Part shown: in pieces, positions 123-5,609 of the stretch
How the letters are laid out: every line of letters begins with the position of its first letter
Position numbering within the stretch: position 1 is the first letter of the stretch
NCBI GenBank assembly: GCA_025936615.1
Contig: JAICSZ010000015.1
Location: 1-13,832, forward strand
Source: Pedococcus sp.
GTDB lineage: Bacteria; Actinomycetota; Actinomycetes; Actinomycetales; Dermatophilaceae
Length of the DNA: 13,832 nucleotides
Reading direction: 5' to 3'
Position numbers and translations under genes: made by a program
Notes under the pieces: model-generated
Told to the model about the DNA's origin: nothing
The model's input: the letters and a program-made list of their open reading frames with translations, nothing else
Databases searched by the model: none

Positions 123-1421
123 ATGCCGCAGCCGCACCCGCGGGACGCCCGGCGCCGCGTGCCCCGCACGGACCGCGTCCTCGCAGAGGAACCGGTGGCG
201 GGCGCAGTCTCGCGCCTTGGTCGGGACACCGTGAAGGCTGCCGTCGCGGCCGCCCAGCAGCGGGTGCGCAACGGCGAGATCTCCCCCGACCAGGTCGTCG
301 CGGCGACGCTGGCCGCGCTTCCGGAACACGTCACGACGATGACCCCCGTGCTCAACGCGACGGGAGTTGTCATCCACACCAACCTCGGGCGCGCGCCGCT
401 GTCCTCGGCCGCGCTCGAGGCGATGACGACGGCCGCGGGCTACGTGGACGTCGAGCTGGACCTCGCCACCGGTCAGCGGTCCTCACGTGGTCGCGCGGCC
501 TCGGCCGCCCTCCTGCGCGCGGTGCCCGAGGCGCAGGCGGCTCTCGTCGTGAACAACGGAGCAGCGGCTCTCGTGCTCGCGACCACCGCCCTGGCGGCCG
601 GCCGCGAGGTGCTGGTGAGCCGCGGGGAGATGGTCGAGATCGGTGACGGCTTCCGCCTCCCTGACCTCATCGCCAGCACGGGAGCCCGGCTACGCGAGGT
701 GGGCACGACGAACCGGACGTCGCTGCAGGACTACGCCGACGCCGTCGGCCCTGACACGGGCTGCATCCTCAAGGTGCACCCGAGCAACTTCCGTGTCGAG
801 GGCTTCACCTCGTCGGTACCGGTGGTCGACCTGGCGTGCCTCGGTCCGCCTGTCGTGCACGACATCGGCAGCGGCCTGCTCGGCGCCCGCCCGCTGCTGC
901 CCGAGGAGCCGGACGCGGCCTCGTCACTGCGCGACGGGGCGTCGGTGGTGACCTGCAGCGGCGACAAGCTGCTGGGCGGACCCCAGGCAGGTCTGGTCCT
1001 GGGTCGCACGGACGCCGTGGAACGTCTCCGACGGCATCCGCTGGCCCGCGCCGTGCGCACGGACAAGACCACCCTCGCGGCACTCGAGGCCACCCTGCGG
1101 GGACCCACGCCTCCGGTCCTGCAGGCGATCGAGGCCGACCCCGGCCGGCTCCGCGCCCGGTGCGAGGCGGTCGTCGCCTCGCTCGCGCCGGAGATCGGCG
1201 CCACCGTGGTGCCCGCCCAGGGCGTCGTGGGCGGCGGCGGAGCTCCGGGACTGCGCCTCCCCGGGTGGGCGGTCGCCCTCCCCGAGCGGTATGCCGCTTT
1301 GTTGCGTTCGCGGACCCAGCCCGTCCTTGCGCGCGTGGAGCGAGGTCAGTGCCTGGTGGACCTGCGTTGCATCCCAGAGACCTCGGATGAGGTTGTGGCA
1401 GAGGCCATTCAGGGCTGCTGA
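123..1421 (+). CDS. selA: L-seryl-tRNA(Sec) selenium transferase SelA
   Basis: This cytosolic PLP enzyme converts Ser-tRNA(Sec) to Sec-tRNA(Sec) using selenophosphate, the step that supplies selenocysteine for UGA decoding. The 432-residue product has the family signatures: TGVVIHTNLGRAPLS (about residues 80-94), the substrate-loop region EVGTTNRT, HDIGSGLL, and the PLP-lysine motif SGDKLLGGPQAG with the Schiff-base lysine at residue 282. Length is slightly below the usual 450-470. The ATG at 123 is chosen because GAGGAGGAG lies 6 nt upstream. It ends 20 bp from the stop of the convergent MauA-like gene. selB, selD and selC, its obligate partners, are not in the window. Its presence implies at least one Sec protein in the genome, and a good candidate is in the adjacent operon. 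Identification is firm. Confidence 0.97.
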   Translation: MPQPHPRDARRRVPRTDRVLAEEPVAGAVSRLGRDTVKAAVAAAQQRVRNGEISPDQVVAATLAALPEHVTTMTPVLNATGVVIHTNLGRAPLSSAALEAMTTAAGYVDVELDLATGQRSSRGRAASAALLRAVPEAQAALVVNNGAAALVLATTALAAGREVLVSRGEMVEIGDGFRLPDLIASTGARLREVGTTNRTSLQDYADAVGPDTGCILKVHPSNFRVEGFTSSVPVVDLACLGPPVVHDIGSGLLGARPLLPEEPDAASSLRDGASVVTCSGDKLLGGPQAGLVLGRTDAVERLRRHPLARAVRTDKTTLAALEATLRGPTPPVLQAIEADPGRLRARCEAVVASLAPEIGATVVPAQGVVGGGGAPGLRLPGWAVALPERYAALLRSRTQPVLARVERGQCLVDLRCIPETSDEVVAEAIQGC

Positions 1422-1441: not shown

Positions 1442-3007
1442 TCAGGCCGTGATCACACCGCCTTCGAACGTGCAGGTGAACCGGCCGTCGTCGGTGCGCA
1501 GGGTGCGGCTCAGGGGGTATCCATAGGGGCCAGTCGCGCCTCCGGCGTCCTTCCACCGTGCCAGGACGTTTCCGAACACGTCGTAGCCGGGCTTGCCGCT
1601 GAGCGCCCACACGTCGCCCGCTTGGAAGGTCTGGAAGGACCCGCGGCTGGTGGCCCTGGCGGGCGCGGTGGGGTACCGCAGCACGCCTGACCAGCGGCCC
1701 GAGGCCAGCCAGGCGCCGTACATGGCTCCCGCGACGAACTGCGTGGCGGTGCTTGCCGAGTCGGTGAAGCAGCCTTCCTGGAAGGTCTGGACCCAGCCGC
1801 TGTCGGGCAGGCCGCGTTGGATCCCTGAGGTCGGGTAGCCGAGTGGGCCGTCCTCCCGTCCGGACGCGGTCCACTGGTCCCACATGGAGCCGAAGACGGC
1901 CTGGGTGGAGGTGCTTGCCGAGTCGGTGAAGCAGCCTCTCTGGAAGGTCTGGATCCAGCCGCTGTCGCGTAGACCGTGTTGGATGCCAGAGGTCGGGTAG
2001 CCGAGGGGACTGTTCTCTCGACCGAGCGCCTTCCACTGGTTCCACATGGAGCCGAAGACGACCTGGGTAGTCGTGCTCGCGGAGTCGGTGACGGCGCCGT
2101 TGGCGAAGACCTGGATCCATCCACCGTCCCGCAGTCCGGTGATGCGGTCGGAGGCGGGGTAGCCCATGACACCGCGAGGTCCCCCCATGGCCTGCCAGTG
2201 CTGGTCGACCCAGGCCAGGAGCGCGCGAGTGCCATGGTCCGGGCTGGTGACGATCTTGCCACCCTGGTACTGCACGTAGGCACCCTTGCCGTCACCGACC
2301 TGGCGCACCGGCCCCGTCGAGGCCCGCAGGAACGAGCGCTGCTCGCCGAGGTCCCGGTACTTGAGGGAGATCGAGCCCCACACCGGCAGGCAGGGGGCGC
2401 TGTGCTCGGCGGTCCGGTTGTCCGAGAGGGAGGTGGTCGTGCAGCTCTCCCACTTGTACGGCGCCACACAGCTGACGACGCGGCAGTGCACCCCACCGCT
2501 GCACTTCACCTGGGTGTTGCACTGCCCGTAGCGGAACGCGTTGCAGCAGACCCGCCGCTGGTCGCAGGTCGCAGAGGACCCCCGGCCACACGAACAGCTC
2601 CAGCACCGGCTGTCGCAGATGCCGTCGCTGCAGCCGGTGGAGCACTTCGAGCACGATGCGTTGCAGTCGACGATGTAGCGGTACCCCTTGCCACACCAGG
2701 AGGAGTCAGCGGCCTTCCACCATCCTGCTGCGAAGCTGCCCGGCGGGCAGGCGTTGACGCCCTGGTTGATGGTGCAGCAGAACACCGTCCACCCGCTGTC
2801 GAAGGTGCTGCCCGGCCCACAGATCGAGGCGTAGGCCGAGACCGGGCGGAGCGCGTAGGTGCGGGGGTTGGTGGCCAGCGCCGAGCCGGCAACGGCGGCA
2901 CCGACCAGCATGCTGCGCCGGGACAGGGGACGGAAGCGCCGCGACAGGGAGCCGATCATCCCGACGAGGCCGCCAGGTCCGGCGTTGAGGTCCTCCAGGG
3001 TGCTCAC
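1442..3007 (-). CDS. Tat-exported MauA-like cysteine-rich protein with LGFP repeats
   Basis: This is an exported, probably wall-attached protein of 521 residues and unknown reaction. A twin-arginine signal is visible (LSRRSMLVG, Arg30-Arg31, hydrophobic run to Ala45). Residues 63-206 hold 22 cysteines and resemble the methylamine dehydrogenase light chain: NACPPGSFAAGWW followed by YRYIVDC matches the MauA pattern NCPPG...SW...YLIAYRDC around the tryptophan that forms the tryptophan tryptophylquinone (TTQ) cofactor. Residues about 260-521 are LGFP-type repeats (LGYPTSG twice, MGYPASD, YGYPLS), a module linked to actinobacterial cell walls. The start is GTG at 3007, overlapping the upstream gene's TGA by 4 bp, so translation is coupled. 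It is the last gene of a MauE/MauD/MauF-like operon. The MauA relation is my pattern match; whether a quinone forms is unknown, and the second TTQ tryptophan cannot be assigned with certainty. Confidence 0.85.
   Translation of the reverse strand: MSTLEDLNAGPGGLVGMIGSLSRRFRPLSRRSMLVGAAVAGSALATNPRTYALRPVSAYASICGPGSTFDSGWTVFCCTINQGVNACPPGSFAAGWWKAADSSWCGKGYRYIVDCNASCSKCSTGCSDGICDSRCWSCSCGRGSSATCDQRRVCCNAFRYGQCNTQVKCSGGVHCRVVSCVAPYKWESCTTTSLSDNRTAEHSAPCLPVWGSISLKYRDLGEQRSFLRASTGPVRQVGDGKGAYVQYQGGKIVTSPDHGTRALLAWVDQHWQAMGGPRGVMGYPASDRITGLRDGGWIQVFANGAVTDSASTTTQVVFGSMWNQWKALGRENSPLGYPTSGIQHGLRDSGWIQTFQRGCFTDSASTSTQAVFGSMWDQWTASGREDGPLGYPTSGIQRGLPDSGWVQTFQEGCFTDSASTATQFVAGAMYGAWLASGRWSGVLRYPTAPARATSRGSFQTFQAGDVWALSGKPGYDVFGNVLARWKDAGGATGPYGYPLSRTLRTDDGRFTCTFEGGVITA
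1749..2234 (-). repeat. Three 162-bp in-frame LGFP repeat units
   Basis: Three successive units of 162 bp (54 codons) begin at 1749, 1911 and 2073 on the plus strand. Each opens with gtgcttgccgagtcggtga or a close variant. The first two are nearly alike over long stretches, including the blocks encoding TDSAST and LGYPTSGIQ. The third is more diverged. They encode the LGFP repeats of the MauA-like protein. The similarity at DNA level suggests recent internal duplication or gene conversion. Confidence 0.85.
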
Positions 3008-3516
3008 GGCCGTCCTCCCTGACGGGCCATCGTGGCCCGGTCGGTGATCTGCAGGGTCCGCACGAACGCCTCTGCGCGGGCGACCGAGGCCATCCTCCGG
3101 GCGTGGCTGCCGACGACGGTGAACAGGCAGAACCCCCGACCGCCGGAGCTGAAGAAGTGCTGCGAGGCGCTCAGCCCCGGCAGCGGTCGCTGCAGCCGGT
3201 TGGGGCCGAACTGCGAGGGAGCCAGCCGCGGCACGCCCTGCTTCTCGAACAGCCCTTGGTCGGCGACCTCCGTGCCGTAGTCGACCAGGGCGACGAAGAC
3301 GTCATCGGGACCCAGCAGCTCCACGACCCCGCTGCCGAAGTCACCACGGTCCCGCGGCATGGGGCGGGTGCAGGCGTGCAGCACACCCCTCGTGACGTCG
3401 TCCTGCGGCACGACCGTGCGCGCGCCGAGCGCCGGTGGTTCGGCGCCCGGGAGGCGGCGCACCTCCACCGTCCAGCCCCTCGGCGTCTGCGCGCCCATGC
3501 CGTAGTTGTCGGACAT
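3004..3516 (-). CDS. Unrecognised 170-aa operon protein
   Basis: I do not recognise this family. The 170-residue product has no signal peptide and no membrane segment, so it should be cytosolic. It has two cysteines (49 and 130) that are not in a CxxC pair. Features worth noting are an acidic, hydrophobic stretch ELLGPDDVFVALVDYGTE (about 66-83) and HFFSSGGRGFCLFTVVG (about 120-136). The start is ATG at 3516, 5 nt after the stop of the Sec-protein gene, with GAGG just upstream. Its stop overlaps the GTG start of the MauA-like gene by 4 bp. Tight packing on both sides implies co-expression and a role in making, modifying or exporting the MauA-like protein, for example as a chaperone or an assembly factor. 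That role is inference only. Confidence 0.8.
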   Translation of the reverse strand: MSDNYGMGAQTPRGWTVEVRRLPGAEPPALGARTVVPQDDVTRGVLHACTRPMPRDRGDFGSGVVELLGPDDVFVALVDYGTEVADQGLFEKQGVPRLAPSQFGPNRLQRPLPGLSASQHFFSSGGRGFCLFTVVGSHARRMASVARAEAFVRTLQITDRATMARQGGRP

Positions 3517-3521
3517 TGCCC

Positions 3522-4211
3522 TCAGCTCCCCACTGCGGTGGCGACAAGTGTGGTGGCGGCTGCAGCCAAGGCCACCCTAGCGAGGACGTCCGCCGCGCTT
3601 GCCCATCTTTCAACCCGTTCGAACACCCGGTGCAGGGCCCTGCGGTCGGTGACCCTGCGCAAGCCCAGCGAGGGGAGGGCACGAACCAGCCCGAAGGTGC
3701 CGCCGATGGCGAGCCCGGCACCCAGGTGGCCGGACCAGGCGGCGAGGAGCACCGCGGCATACGTCGTGGCGCTGGTGGTGATCGTGACCAGGCCAAGACC
3801 GAGCTGCGCGCCGAAGCCGGCGCCGTAGACCCAGCCGCGGTACCGGGCGAGCCACTGCTCGTCGACCTGACGGTGCCAGGACGGCAGCGACAGCCCGCCG
3901 ACGCCCAGGTCGAGGGCGAGCCCGCCCAGCAGCAGGGCGGCGAGGAGGAGCTGGGTCGCGGACGAGGAGCGCCATCCCACCGGGACGAGCGACCCGAGGG
4001 TCGCGGCGAGGCCGCCGACCACGAGCCCGCCCACGAACGATCCGGCCACGTACGCCGTGGTGGTCAACCACCACCGGGAGCCGCGTGCCCGCTCACCGAG
4101 CGGGCTGATGCTCGAGAGCATCGACTCGCCTCAAGGCGACCATGTCGCATGAAGTGCTGCCACCACCGCCATGGGCAGGCCGAGCAGGAGGGCGGTGGTG
4201 GTCGGGTCCAC
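3522..4211 (-). CDS. MauF/CcdA-like membrane selenoprotein with in-frame UGA
   Basis: This is a predicted six-helix membrane protein of 229 residues, with selenocysteine at residue 27 encoded by TGA 4131-4133. Downstream of the TGA the frame encodes MLSSISPLGERARG and five hydrophobic segments. Upstream, the same frame gives a further helix (TTTALLLGLPMAVVAALHATWSP) starting from GTG 4211, three bases after the mauD-like stop, which fits coupled translation. The ATG at 4121 would lose this first helix. CcdA, DsbD and MauF proteins pass reducing equivalents across the membrane using a Pro-Cys in the first helix; here the UGA takes that cysteine's place. The product contains no cysteine at all, so Sec would be its only redox residue. 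It sits between MauD-like and unknown genes in the operon. Alternatives are a TGC/TGT-to-TGA mutation (pseudogene) or an ATG-started short protein. Family assignment is moderate; the frame evidence is strong. Confidence 0.82.
4087..4122 (-). promoter_or_regulatory. Candidate bacterial SECIS: two adjacent hairpins after the UGA
   Basis: Hairpin 1 (4122 to 4107) is GATGCT, loop CTCG, AGCATC, a perfect 6-bp stem starting 8 nt after the UGA; its loop lies 14 nt after it. Hairpin 2 (4105 to 4087) is GCCCGCTC, loop GGT, GAGCGGGC, a perfect 8-bp stem whose loop lies 33 nt after the UGA. The GGU loop recalls the apical GGU bound by SelB in the E. coli fdhF element. Bacterial SECIS elements lie inside the coding sequence, directly downstream of the UGA, as here. 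Which hairpin, or a fold of both, is the real element cannot be decided by eye. Base pairing is seen; function is inferred. Confidence 0.6.
4131..4133 (-). other. Candidate selenocysteine UGA codon
   Basis: The TGA interrupts an otherwise continuous frame from 4211 to 3522. Reading it as Sec gives the motif HATWSP-U-GES between helix 1 and the conserved-looking SMLSSISPLGE. A Cys codon differs from TGA by one base, as expected for a Cys/Sec exchange. Hairpins suitable for SelB follow at once, and selA is encoded about 2.7 kb away. Confidence 0.8.
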
Positions 4212-4214
4212 CGG

Positions 4215-5078
4215 TCAGCGCCGGTCGGCGGCCGCACGCCCCGAGTGCCCGCTGTAGTCGTGCCGATGGCCGTGGTCGTCAGCCGGCTCGTGGTCGGGGG
4301 AGGCGTAGAGGCTCGGGTCGCCCGGGCTGATGCCGGCCGCGAGCAGCTCGCTGTCCATGCGGGGCAGGCTGTCCCTCTCGCCCCGGCCGACCAGGTCGTC
4401 GCCCACCAGCATGCCCGGCCCAGCGCGACCCGCGGCGTTGCGCGCCTCCTCGCCGTCCGCGACGCCCTGGGCCATCAGGTCGCGTACCTGCGACCACGTC
4501 GTGGCCGACCCCTCGCCGGTCACCCTCCCGGCCTCGACGTAGACGAAGTAGGGGGAGCCCGGGATGTCATAGTCGGTCCAGGCGCCCGAGGACTGGACGA
4601 CCTCACGTCCCCCGGCCAGTGAACGCAGGCTGCCGGGCGACTCCTCCTCGGGTCCCTTGACGATGATGCGCAGCGTGCCGTCGCCCGGCACGGCGACCTC
4701 GCCACGGAACTCCTCCCAGAACGTCTGGCACACGCTGCAGCCGCTCGTGAGGAACGCGAGCAGGGTGCGCTGCCCGGGGCCTCCGAGGGTGATCGTGCGC
4801 TCCTCCCTGTCGAGGGTCGCGCCGACGATGTCGTGCGCCCTCGTCGAGTCCTTGCGGGTCGCAGGGACCACGCCGGCCTCGAGCTCCACCGGCACTGGTC
4901 CCGGGCCGCCCCCAGCCGCGACCGCGGCGGCGCCGGTGCCCGCCTCCTTCTCCAGGTCGAGACCGGCGCCGAGCTCGTGCAATGCCTTGAGGATCAGGGC
5001 GTGGCTGCGCAGCAGCCCCAGGACGAGCACGCCCAGCAGGACGACGGCGACGCCCTCGGCGATGACGACCGCAAGCAT
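4215..5078 (-). CDS. MauD-like membrane-anchored thioredoxin-fold protein
   Basis: This is a thiol-disulfide protein of 287 residues, anchored by an N-terminal helix (residues 2-22) with the catalytic domain expected outside the membrane. The active-site motif is SGCSVCQTFW (Cys114, Cys117), and the thioredoxin cis-proline region is IPGSPYFVYVE (Pro176). MauD is required to make the disulfide-rich light chain of methylamine dehydrogenase, and the order MauE-MauD-...-MauA is kept here. The ATG at 5078 lies 3 nt past the MauE-like stop; the stop lies 3 nt before the GTG of the Sec protein. Odd features are a variable linker rich in Gly/Ala/Pro (46-66) and a His/Asp-rich tail (HEPADDHGHRHDYSGH, about 263-278) that could bind metal. 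A TlpA-type reductase is the alternative label; the thioredoxin fold is secure. Confidence 0.87.
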   Translation of the reverse strand: MLAVVIAEGVAVVLLGVLVLGLLRSHALILKALHELGAGLDLEKEAGTGAAAVAAGGGPGPVPVELEAGVVPATRKDSTRAHDIVGATLDREERTITLGGPGQRTLLAFLTSGCSVCQTFWEEFRGEVAVPGDGTLRIIVKGPEEESPGSLRSLAGGREVVQSSGAWTDYDIPGSPYFVYVEAGRVTGEGSATTWSQVRDLMAQGVADGEEARNAAGRAGPGMLVGDDLVGRGERDSLPRMDSELLAAGISPGDPSLYASPDHEPADDHGHRHDYSGHSGRAAADRR

Positions 5079-5081
5079 CAG

Positions 5082-5609
5082 TCAGCCCTTCGTGGTGGTG
5101 CGGATGGCGGCAGGGGTGGTGGTCGGCAGGACGGCCAGCACCTGCCAGGCCAGGAACGCGATGACCGCCCCCAGCGCGACGGTGGTGACCATGGCGGCGT
5201 CCACACCCGTCCAGACGCCCCGTGGGGGGTCGATGGTTGCCCACAGCGCGACCAGGGCAGCGGCGGCGGTGAGGACGAGATGGGTGCGCGTGGCCGGCGT
5301 GTCGGCCTTGCCGAAGCATCCGCACGAGCCGAGGACACCGCCGCGGGCCAGGACCCGCGCGACGAAGAGGGTGAAGACGAGGTATGCCGCGGCCACCAGT
5401 GCCGAGCTCGCTCGCCCGGGTGCCACGACGGCCCAACCTCCGATGGCGACCTCAGCGAGCGCGAAGGCACGCACGAGGACGCGAGGAACCGGCATACCGG
5501 CGACGCGCAGCGCGCGAACCAGCGGCAGCGGGTCGGCGACCTTGGGCAGGCCCGCCACCACGAGCAGACCCGCAGCCGCGAGGAACGGTGCAGCGGCCAG
5601 GTCCCACAT
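5082..5609 (-). CDS. MauE/DoxX-like redox-associated membrane protein
   Basis: This is a small integral membrane protein of 175 residues with four likely helices. The opening FLAAAGLLVVAGLPKVADP resembles the first helix of MauE/DoxX proteins, and the motif SCGCFGK (Cys96, Cys98) matches the conserved CGCFG of MauE-type proteins. MauE works with MauD in light-chain maturation, probably moving electrons between the membrane and the thioredoxin-like partner. It is the first gene of the five-gene operon, 30 bp downstream of the DUF5324-like stop. The start at ATG 5609 has no clear ribosome-binding site but sits 8 nt after a TAGCGT box, consistent with a nearly leaderless transcript. Read-through from the upstream gene is also possible. 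Confidence 0.88.
   Translation of the reverse strand: MWDLAAAPFLAAAGLLVVAGLPKVADPLPLVRALRVAGMPVPRVLVRAFALAEVAIGGWAVVAPGRASSALVAAAYLVFTLFVARVLARGGVLGSCGCFGKADTPATRTHLVLTAAAALVALWATIDPPRGVWTGVDAAMVTTVALGAVIAFLAWQVLAVLPTTTPAAIRTTTKG

Follow-up and report, generated by a model that had tools for sequence, protein, structure and literature searches.

What is the role of the TGA codon that interrupts, in frame, a predicted membrane-protein gene of Pedococcus sp.? The gene lies on a 13,832-nucleotide stretch (assembly GCA_025936615.1, contig JAICSZ010000015.1), which was analysed at its full length and is referred to here as the window. A first-pass annotation of the window claimed that an apparent 199-residue, MauF/CcdA-like protein is the visible part of a longer selenoprotein, in which selenocysteine (Sec) at residue 27 replaces a family cysteine. 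This claim held up. On computational grounds, it is near certain that residue 27 is Sec, because the in-frame TGA is conserved, relatives carry Cys in its place, the hairpins downstream of it covary, and the UGA form co-occurs with the Sec machinery. The features that define the gene are as follows.

3522 to 4211, minus strand: predicted selenoprotein gene, GTG start at 4211-4209, stop TGA at 3524-3522; 229 residues, putative Sec at residue 27.
4131 to 4133, minus strand: in-frame TGA, predicted Sec codon; TGA in 95 and TGC in 8 of the 103 aligned rows that span it.
4134 to 4211, minus strand: codons of the 26 N-terminal residues absent from the listed database records; first membrane helix ending in TWSP, with a coding pattern and a helix at residues 3-23 in the structure model.

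The 199-residue open reading frame starts at ATG 4121-4119, and the same frame extends upstream via TGA 4133-4131 to GTG 4211. A mauD-like gene stops at 4217-4215, which leaves a 3-nt gap before the GTG; the coordinates of the read-through frame were thus confirmed. The 26 added residues are VDPTTTALLLGLPMAVVAALHATWSP. Residue 27 stands in the context HATWSP-U-GESMLSSISPLGER and is the sole Cys/Sec position of the 229-residue product. An AlphaFold2 model of this product (predicted local distance difference test, 86.8; predicted template modelling score, 0.84) contains helices that include residues 3-23, 26-35, 37-43, 47-73, 84-101, 118-138, 163-184, and 190-228. The added residues had been annotated as a membrane helix ending in HATWSP, and helix 3-23 of the model agrees with this. 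Residue 27 lies at the junction of the first helix with a short one.

Conservation of the added residues had been named as a point of support. Twenty-two upstream codons were compared with those of 14 close relatives. Mismatch was 0.24, 0.18, and 0.53 at codon positions 1, 2, and 3, respectively; of the codon differences, 113 were synonymous and 94 were non-synonymous. Higher up in this frame, within mauD, the values were 0.67, 0.74, and 0.65; this control is imperfect, as the stretch had no indel alignment. Judged by this pattern, the 22 codons behave as coding sequence, and conserved protein is found on both sides of the UGA in a frame that continues. In 74 of 94 genes, a start codon overlaps a stop in the NTGA manner at a distance of 18-34 codons upstream of the TGA, a count made without checking the preceding gene's frame in every case; the window differs in its spacing of 3 nt.

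The column of residue 27 was then read in relatives, with Actinomycetota as the scope of the genome search. Genomic loci are numbered with L and genomes with G. A contig scan gave 43 loci, and TGA before a conserved Gly, with WSP preceding, was present in 43/43 and in the window. The scan pattern, SISPLGERA, overlies the hairpins described below and may favour UGA forms. Profile A2, built from UGA forms and independent of this word, was run on 396 Actinomycetota genomes and matched 63. The best match had exactly one internal stop in 51 genomes, TGA in every case, and none in 12. Among these 12 stop-free genomes, eight carried Cys, three matches were short of the column, and the match in G257 (E 2.3e-4) did not come up again with the profile made for this analysis.

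The sequence set comprised 107 members (L001-L106 and the window), of which L079 had no match, leaving 106 aligned rows. At column 27, TGA was found in 95 rows and TGC in 8, and 3 rows did not span it. L001 and L044 are one gene, hence the 95 TGA rows represent 94 genes, the window included. All eight stop-free genomic loci that span the column thus have Cys. A protein search with one of them, L071, returned 1994 proteins, and the 120 listed relatives all carry Cys at the column (120/120), preceded by 18 to 52 residues. A 130-row tree, built with that column masked, implies at least two Sec/Cys exchanges. The UGA forms include a second, distant clade (clade 2; most of L080-L106, e.g. L089:6064-6114), with the motif LFGP-U-GLSMVETITPVVHGGR and covarying hairpins of its own.

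Two hairpins follow the TGA in the window, and the second is a candidate selenocysteine insertion sequence (SECIS).

4107 to 4122, minus strand: hairpin 1, GATGCT-CTCG-AGCATC, covering ATG 4121; pairs kept in 95.1% of cells, with a compensatory C-G to G-C change in clade 2.
4087 to 4105, minus strand: hairpin 2, GCCCGCTC-GGT-GAGCGGGC, SECIS candidate; apical loop 33 nt after the TGA, -14.9 kcal/mol.

Both-side changes were observed in 7/8 pairs of hairpin 2 and in 10/14 pairs of the two hairpins together. In 85 distinct sequences, pairing was kept in 87.9% of cells versus 34.7-50.5% for slid versions, a comparison that favours the structure because it was derived from the same sequences. The covariation score in these sequences was 0.272 versus 0.094 in shuffles. 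The two clades differ in hairpin 1 pairs at the same places (GATGCT/AGCATC versus GATGGT/ACCATC). By eye, the stem of hairpin 2 appears to be shifted four bases around a GGTC loop in many of L046-L066; these were scored against the structure. With a stem of 8 bp, a GGU loop, and a distance of 33 nt, hairpin 2 falls within the published bacterial SECIS limits (PMC13188914). Hairpins of 8 bp are not uncommon downstream of TGA triplets, 10 of the window's 235 having one; therefore, weight was placed on the covariation and on the low third-position variation, which is 0.13 in the 16 codons after the TGA versus 0.47 in codons 17-59 after it. The fold of the window sequence alone is mildly unusual (z -1.99) and is weak evidence.

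The presence of selA near the gene had been pointed out, and it is indeed in the window, with two genes between it and the predicted selenoprotein gene.

123 to 1421, plus strand: selA, L-seryl-tRNA(Sec) selenium transferase; TIGR00474, 418 bits (cut-off 268); PF03841, 326 bits.

No RNA, and thus no recognisable selenocysteine tRNA (tRNA-Sec), was detected in the window by ARAGORN or at the Rfam gathering cut-off, and a permissive Rfam scan of positions 1-400 was also empty. In Pedococcus bigeumensis (L001), a tRNA-like sequence with a TCA anticodon stands just before selA, where the tRNA-Sec match maps. A tRNA-Sec of at least 62 bits was present in 39/43 genomes of L001-L043; the other four (G018, G024, G036, and G037) had matches of 52 bits or less only. 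Across the 396 genomes, tRNA-Sec was found in 44/51 genomes with the UGA form, 1/8 with the Cys form (G143), and 158/333 without a match. Fisher p values for this co-occurrence were 7e-5 and 1e-7, for genomes that are not independent. The UGA genomes lacking tRNA-Sec were G060, G094, G192, G200, G243, G288, and G299. SelB was found in 43/51 UGA genomes and 1/8 Cys genomes at E<=1e-60, a limit that admits matches below the family cut-off (228 versus 214 genomes overall). Either tRNA-Sec or SelB was present in 49/51 UGA genomes. Within one family of 149 genomes, the full-length gene occurred in 17, always with TGA, and tRNA-Sec accompanied it in 17/17 versus 71/132 of the others (p 9e-5); stop-free matches in that family (a second one in G011, and those in G479 and G512) were short of the column and excluded from the count. 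Absence of selB, selC, or selD from the genome had been named as grounds for rejecting the selenoprotein. Most UGA-form relatives have both tRNA-Sec and SelB in the same genome, and the window itself has selA.

As a separate observation, G001 and G007 each carry two strong tRNA-Sec matches (79.5 and 76.3 bits; 81.6 and 76.3 bits, respectively), one of which shares a contig with the Sec gene, at a distance of up to approximately 5 kb.

What would such a protein do? The neighbouring genes offer a suggestion. Counts below are over the 69 clade-1 UGA rows besides the window, with L001 and L044 both counted and some stretches short.

4215 to 5078, minus strand: MauD-like thioredoxin-type gene with CxxC, directly upstream; in 68/69 loci.
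5082 to 5609, minus strand: mauE (PF07291, 52.3 bits, cut-off 27); in 46/69 loci.
3004 to 3516, minus strand: gene of unknown function, directly downstream; in 67/69 loci.
1442 to 3007, minus strand: Cys-rich protein with a twin-arginine-like start and LGFP repeats (PF08310, 147 bits, 5 stretches), possible client; in 65/69 loci.

MauD and MauE have a role in the maturation of methylamine dehydrogenase. The CxxC of the MauD-like protein is invariant in 17/17 aligned sequences, and its Pfam support is weak (Thioredoxin_2 in 2/17 members). MauE keeps a CGC motif in 47 aligned sequences. The order MauD, Sec gene, gene of unknown function is found in 67/77 loci with a Sec-gene match. Because of this gene company and the role of MauD and MauE, it is likely, by analogy, that the Sec protein takes part in thiol-disulfide exchange with the MauD-like protein. 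We propose the following sequence of events. Translation would start at GTG 4211, coupled to mauD, and UGA 4133-4131 would be decoded as Sec via tRNA-Sec, SelB, and the downstream hairpins. The product would be a 229-residue membrane protein with a single Sec at the end of the first helix as its redox centre. The selenol would exchange electrons with the CxxC of the MauD-like protein, and the purpose may be to form or reshuffle disulfides of the Cys-rich protein, which is probably exported. Electron flow could be reductive, as in DsbD/CcdA, or oxidative. This explanation as a whole, with Sec decoding and a single-Sec membrane redox centre working with the MauD-like CxxC protein, appears probable to us, with less assurance than for the Sec residue itself.

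Kinship with CcdA/DsbD, part of the original annotation, was retained only in a weak form. DsbD_2 matched 7/23 family members and DsbD_TM 4/23 (PF13386 and PF02683 searched; E <= 0.01), whereas the window protein matched neither PF02683 nor PF13386. When a profile that included the Cys forms was aligned with CcdA, residue 27 fell on the first cysteine, in an SPC motif (hhalign probability 23%, E 0.00087), whereas the Sec-only profile aligned elsewhere. Of the two redox cysteines of CcdA, one in each half, the second has no counterpart.

Several observations weigh against the proposed explanation. Two concern Sec itself: G243 and G299 carry the UGA form with neither tRNA-Sec nor SelB at the limits used, and the Cys form L075 comes from a genome (G143) with both tRNA-Sec and SelB, the latter on the same contig as the gene. 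In addition, a TGAGG that could serve as a ribosome site precedes ATG 4121 by 7 nt. The others concern function. Column 27 is the only conserved redox column; the Cys column that comes next reaches 0.34 among Cys forms, and the window has G170 there. Pfam support for a DsbD-type function is weak, as described above. A Protein Data Bank (PDB) fold search with the model of the Sec protein returned common helical arrangements only, a list that lacks CcdA but is still compatible with a CcdA fold. In the second UGA clade (25 loci), matches to the Cys-rich gene were found in 0/25 loci and matches to the other neighbour genes in none, apart from a distant MauD-like (thioredoxin-like) match in 12.

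These functional points leave room for a different role of the selenol. The protein could be a selenoprotein whose selenol serves chemistry other than that of MauD-like disulfides, such as metal or peroxide handling or transport. We consider this unlikely, yet it is the strongest competitor. It does not predict that the CxxC and Cys-rich genes are near-constant in clade 1 (68/69 and 65/69), that the Cys form L071, the only one among eight, keeps an adjoining Cys-rich LGFP gene, or that a distant thioredoxin-like gene persists in 12/25 clade-2 loci.

A second alternative denies the Sec residue. The UGA would be an ordinary stop, at which the short mauD-coupled frame ends, and ribosomes would restart at ATG 4121 to make the 199-residue protein. 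The TGAGG before this ATG fits such a restart, and so do the database records. A protein search with the window protein gave 1236 homologues; the 120 listed have 197-207 residues and begin, without exception, at the equivalent of Met31, just past the UGA. Automated callers thus start where the first-pass annotation expected them to. That annotation had also held that homologues starting at the equivalent of ATG 4121 would speak against a selenoprotein. This is literally true of the 120 listed records, but in the genes whose DNA was read, the late start is, judging from the conserved TGA, a gene-calling artefact; the 120 listed records themselves were not traced individually to DNA. Further findings are difficult to reconcile with a stop. 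The internal stop is TGA in 95/95 stop-bearing rows and never TAA or TAG, although the terminal stops of the UGA genes are TGA in 76, TAG in 10, and TAA in 6 (16/92 not TGA). Relatives carry Cys in place of the stop, the upstream helix is conserved as protein, the ATG lies within hairpin 1, and the UGA form co-occurs with tRNA-Sec. An ordinary stop is accordingly very improbable.

The last alternative, that a near-cognate tRNA reads the UGA as Trp or Cys or that the genes are decaying, draws on the Sec product being known here as a prediction from sequence and has almost no probability left, since it would not lead one to expect the exact Cys/TGA exchange, the covariation of the hairpins, or the association with Sec machinery, and since 95 rows of many different lineages keep an open frame past the TGA.

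With Sec decoding as the preferred reading, the family was compared with known selenoproteins. It resembles the prokaryotic selenoproteins catalogued in PMC13188914 in its in-frame UGA, Cys in relatives, a hairpin in the bacterial SECIS range, and Sec machinery accompanying the UGA form. In Table 1 of that 2026 catalogue (119 families or subfamilies), no entry matches by name or motif. Closest in name are TsoB, which is rhodanese/DsbD fusion-like and has two Sec (UxxxxU), and the transporter family YeeE/YedE (GUxSG), both compared by name and motif only. No NCBIfam 20.0 model matches the window protein, and one marginal PhnE match was obtained among 23 members. The literature searches made here listed no description of the family, and an earlier mention elsewhere may exist.

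The family has probably been overlooked in databases because gene callers begin afresh downstream of the UGA. The listed records (120/120) lack the first helix and the predicted redox residue, and the annotated protein hides its function. If the Sec reading is true, a family is added to the 119 of the PMC13188914 catalogue, and Sec-using Actinomycetota, Acidimicrobiia included, gain a new selenium client. With its minimum of two exchanges, the family would also supply a naturally occurring pair of Sec and Cys forms in which to ask why a membrane thiol relay would use selenium. A fixed N-terminal truncation common to many separate gene calls would be a usable sign of a hidden selenoprotein. A broader proposal seems to us evenly balanced: that these are phylum-wide Sec-dependent transmembrane oxidoreductases, in which a single membrane selenol and MauD-/MauE-like partners mature an exported, Cys-rich surface protein that is like a methylamine dehydrogenase light chain, making a one-selenol variant of the DsbD/CcdA relay.

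The neighbourhood resembles a mau (methylamine dehydrogenase) cluster in mauE by Pfam, the MauD-like CxxC gene, and a Cys-rich protein, and differs in the LGFP repeats of the window's Cys-rich protein. A TAT_signal match in this protein was below cut-off, and its Cys-rich part is without a Pfam family. In a fold search with its low-confidence model, 13 of the 14 listed weak matches were light chains of methylamine or aromatic amine dehydrogenases. Identification as such a light chain by Pfam was rejected (PF02975 over cut-off in 0/24 members and 0/8 genomes), and the resemblance was retained as a fold hint. PDB sequence searches with profiles of the Sec protein and the Cys-rich protein returned nothing up to E 1. 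The protein of 3004-3516 had no Pfam or NCBIfam match. A Pfam scan of the neighbours of clade-2 and Cys-form genes yielded little beyond the thioredoxin-like gene, which was below Pfam cut-offs, and LGFP repeats. A plasmid search with the window gave no match. UGA at conserved Cys columns of neighbour genes was sought and found in none except one at a contig end. In this case (L051, 2971-2973, plus strand), an in-frame TGA occupies the column of the invariant first FCC cysteine of the Cys-rich protein (GWTAF-TGA-CTINQ). The codon lies approximately 17 bases from the contig end and may encode another Sec or stem from an error in sequencing or assembly.
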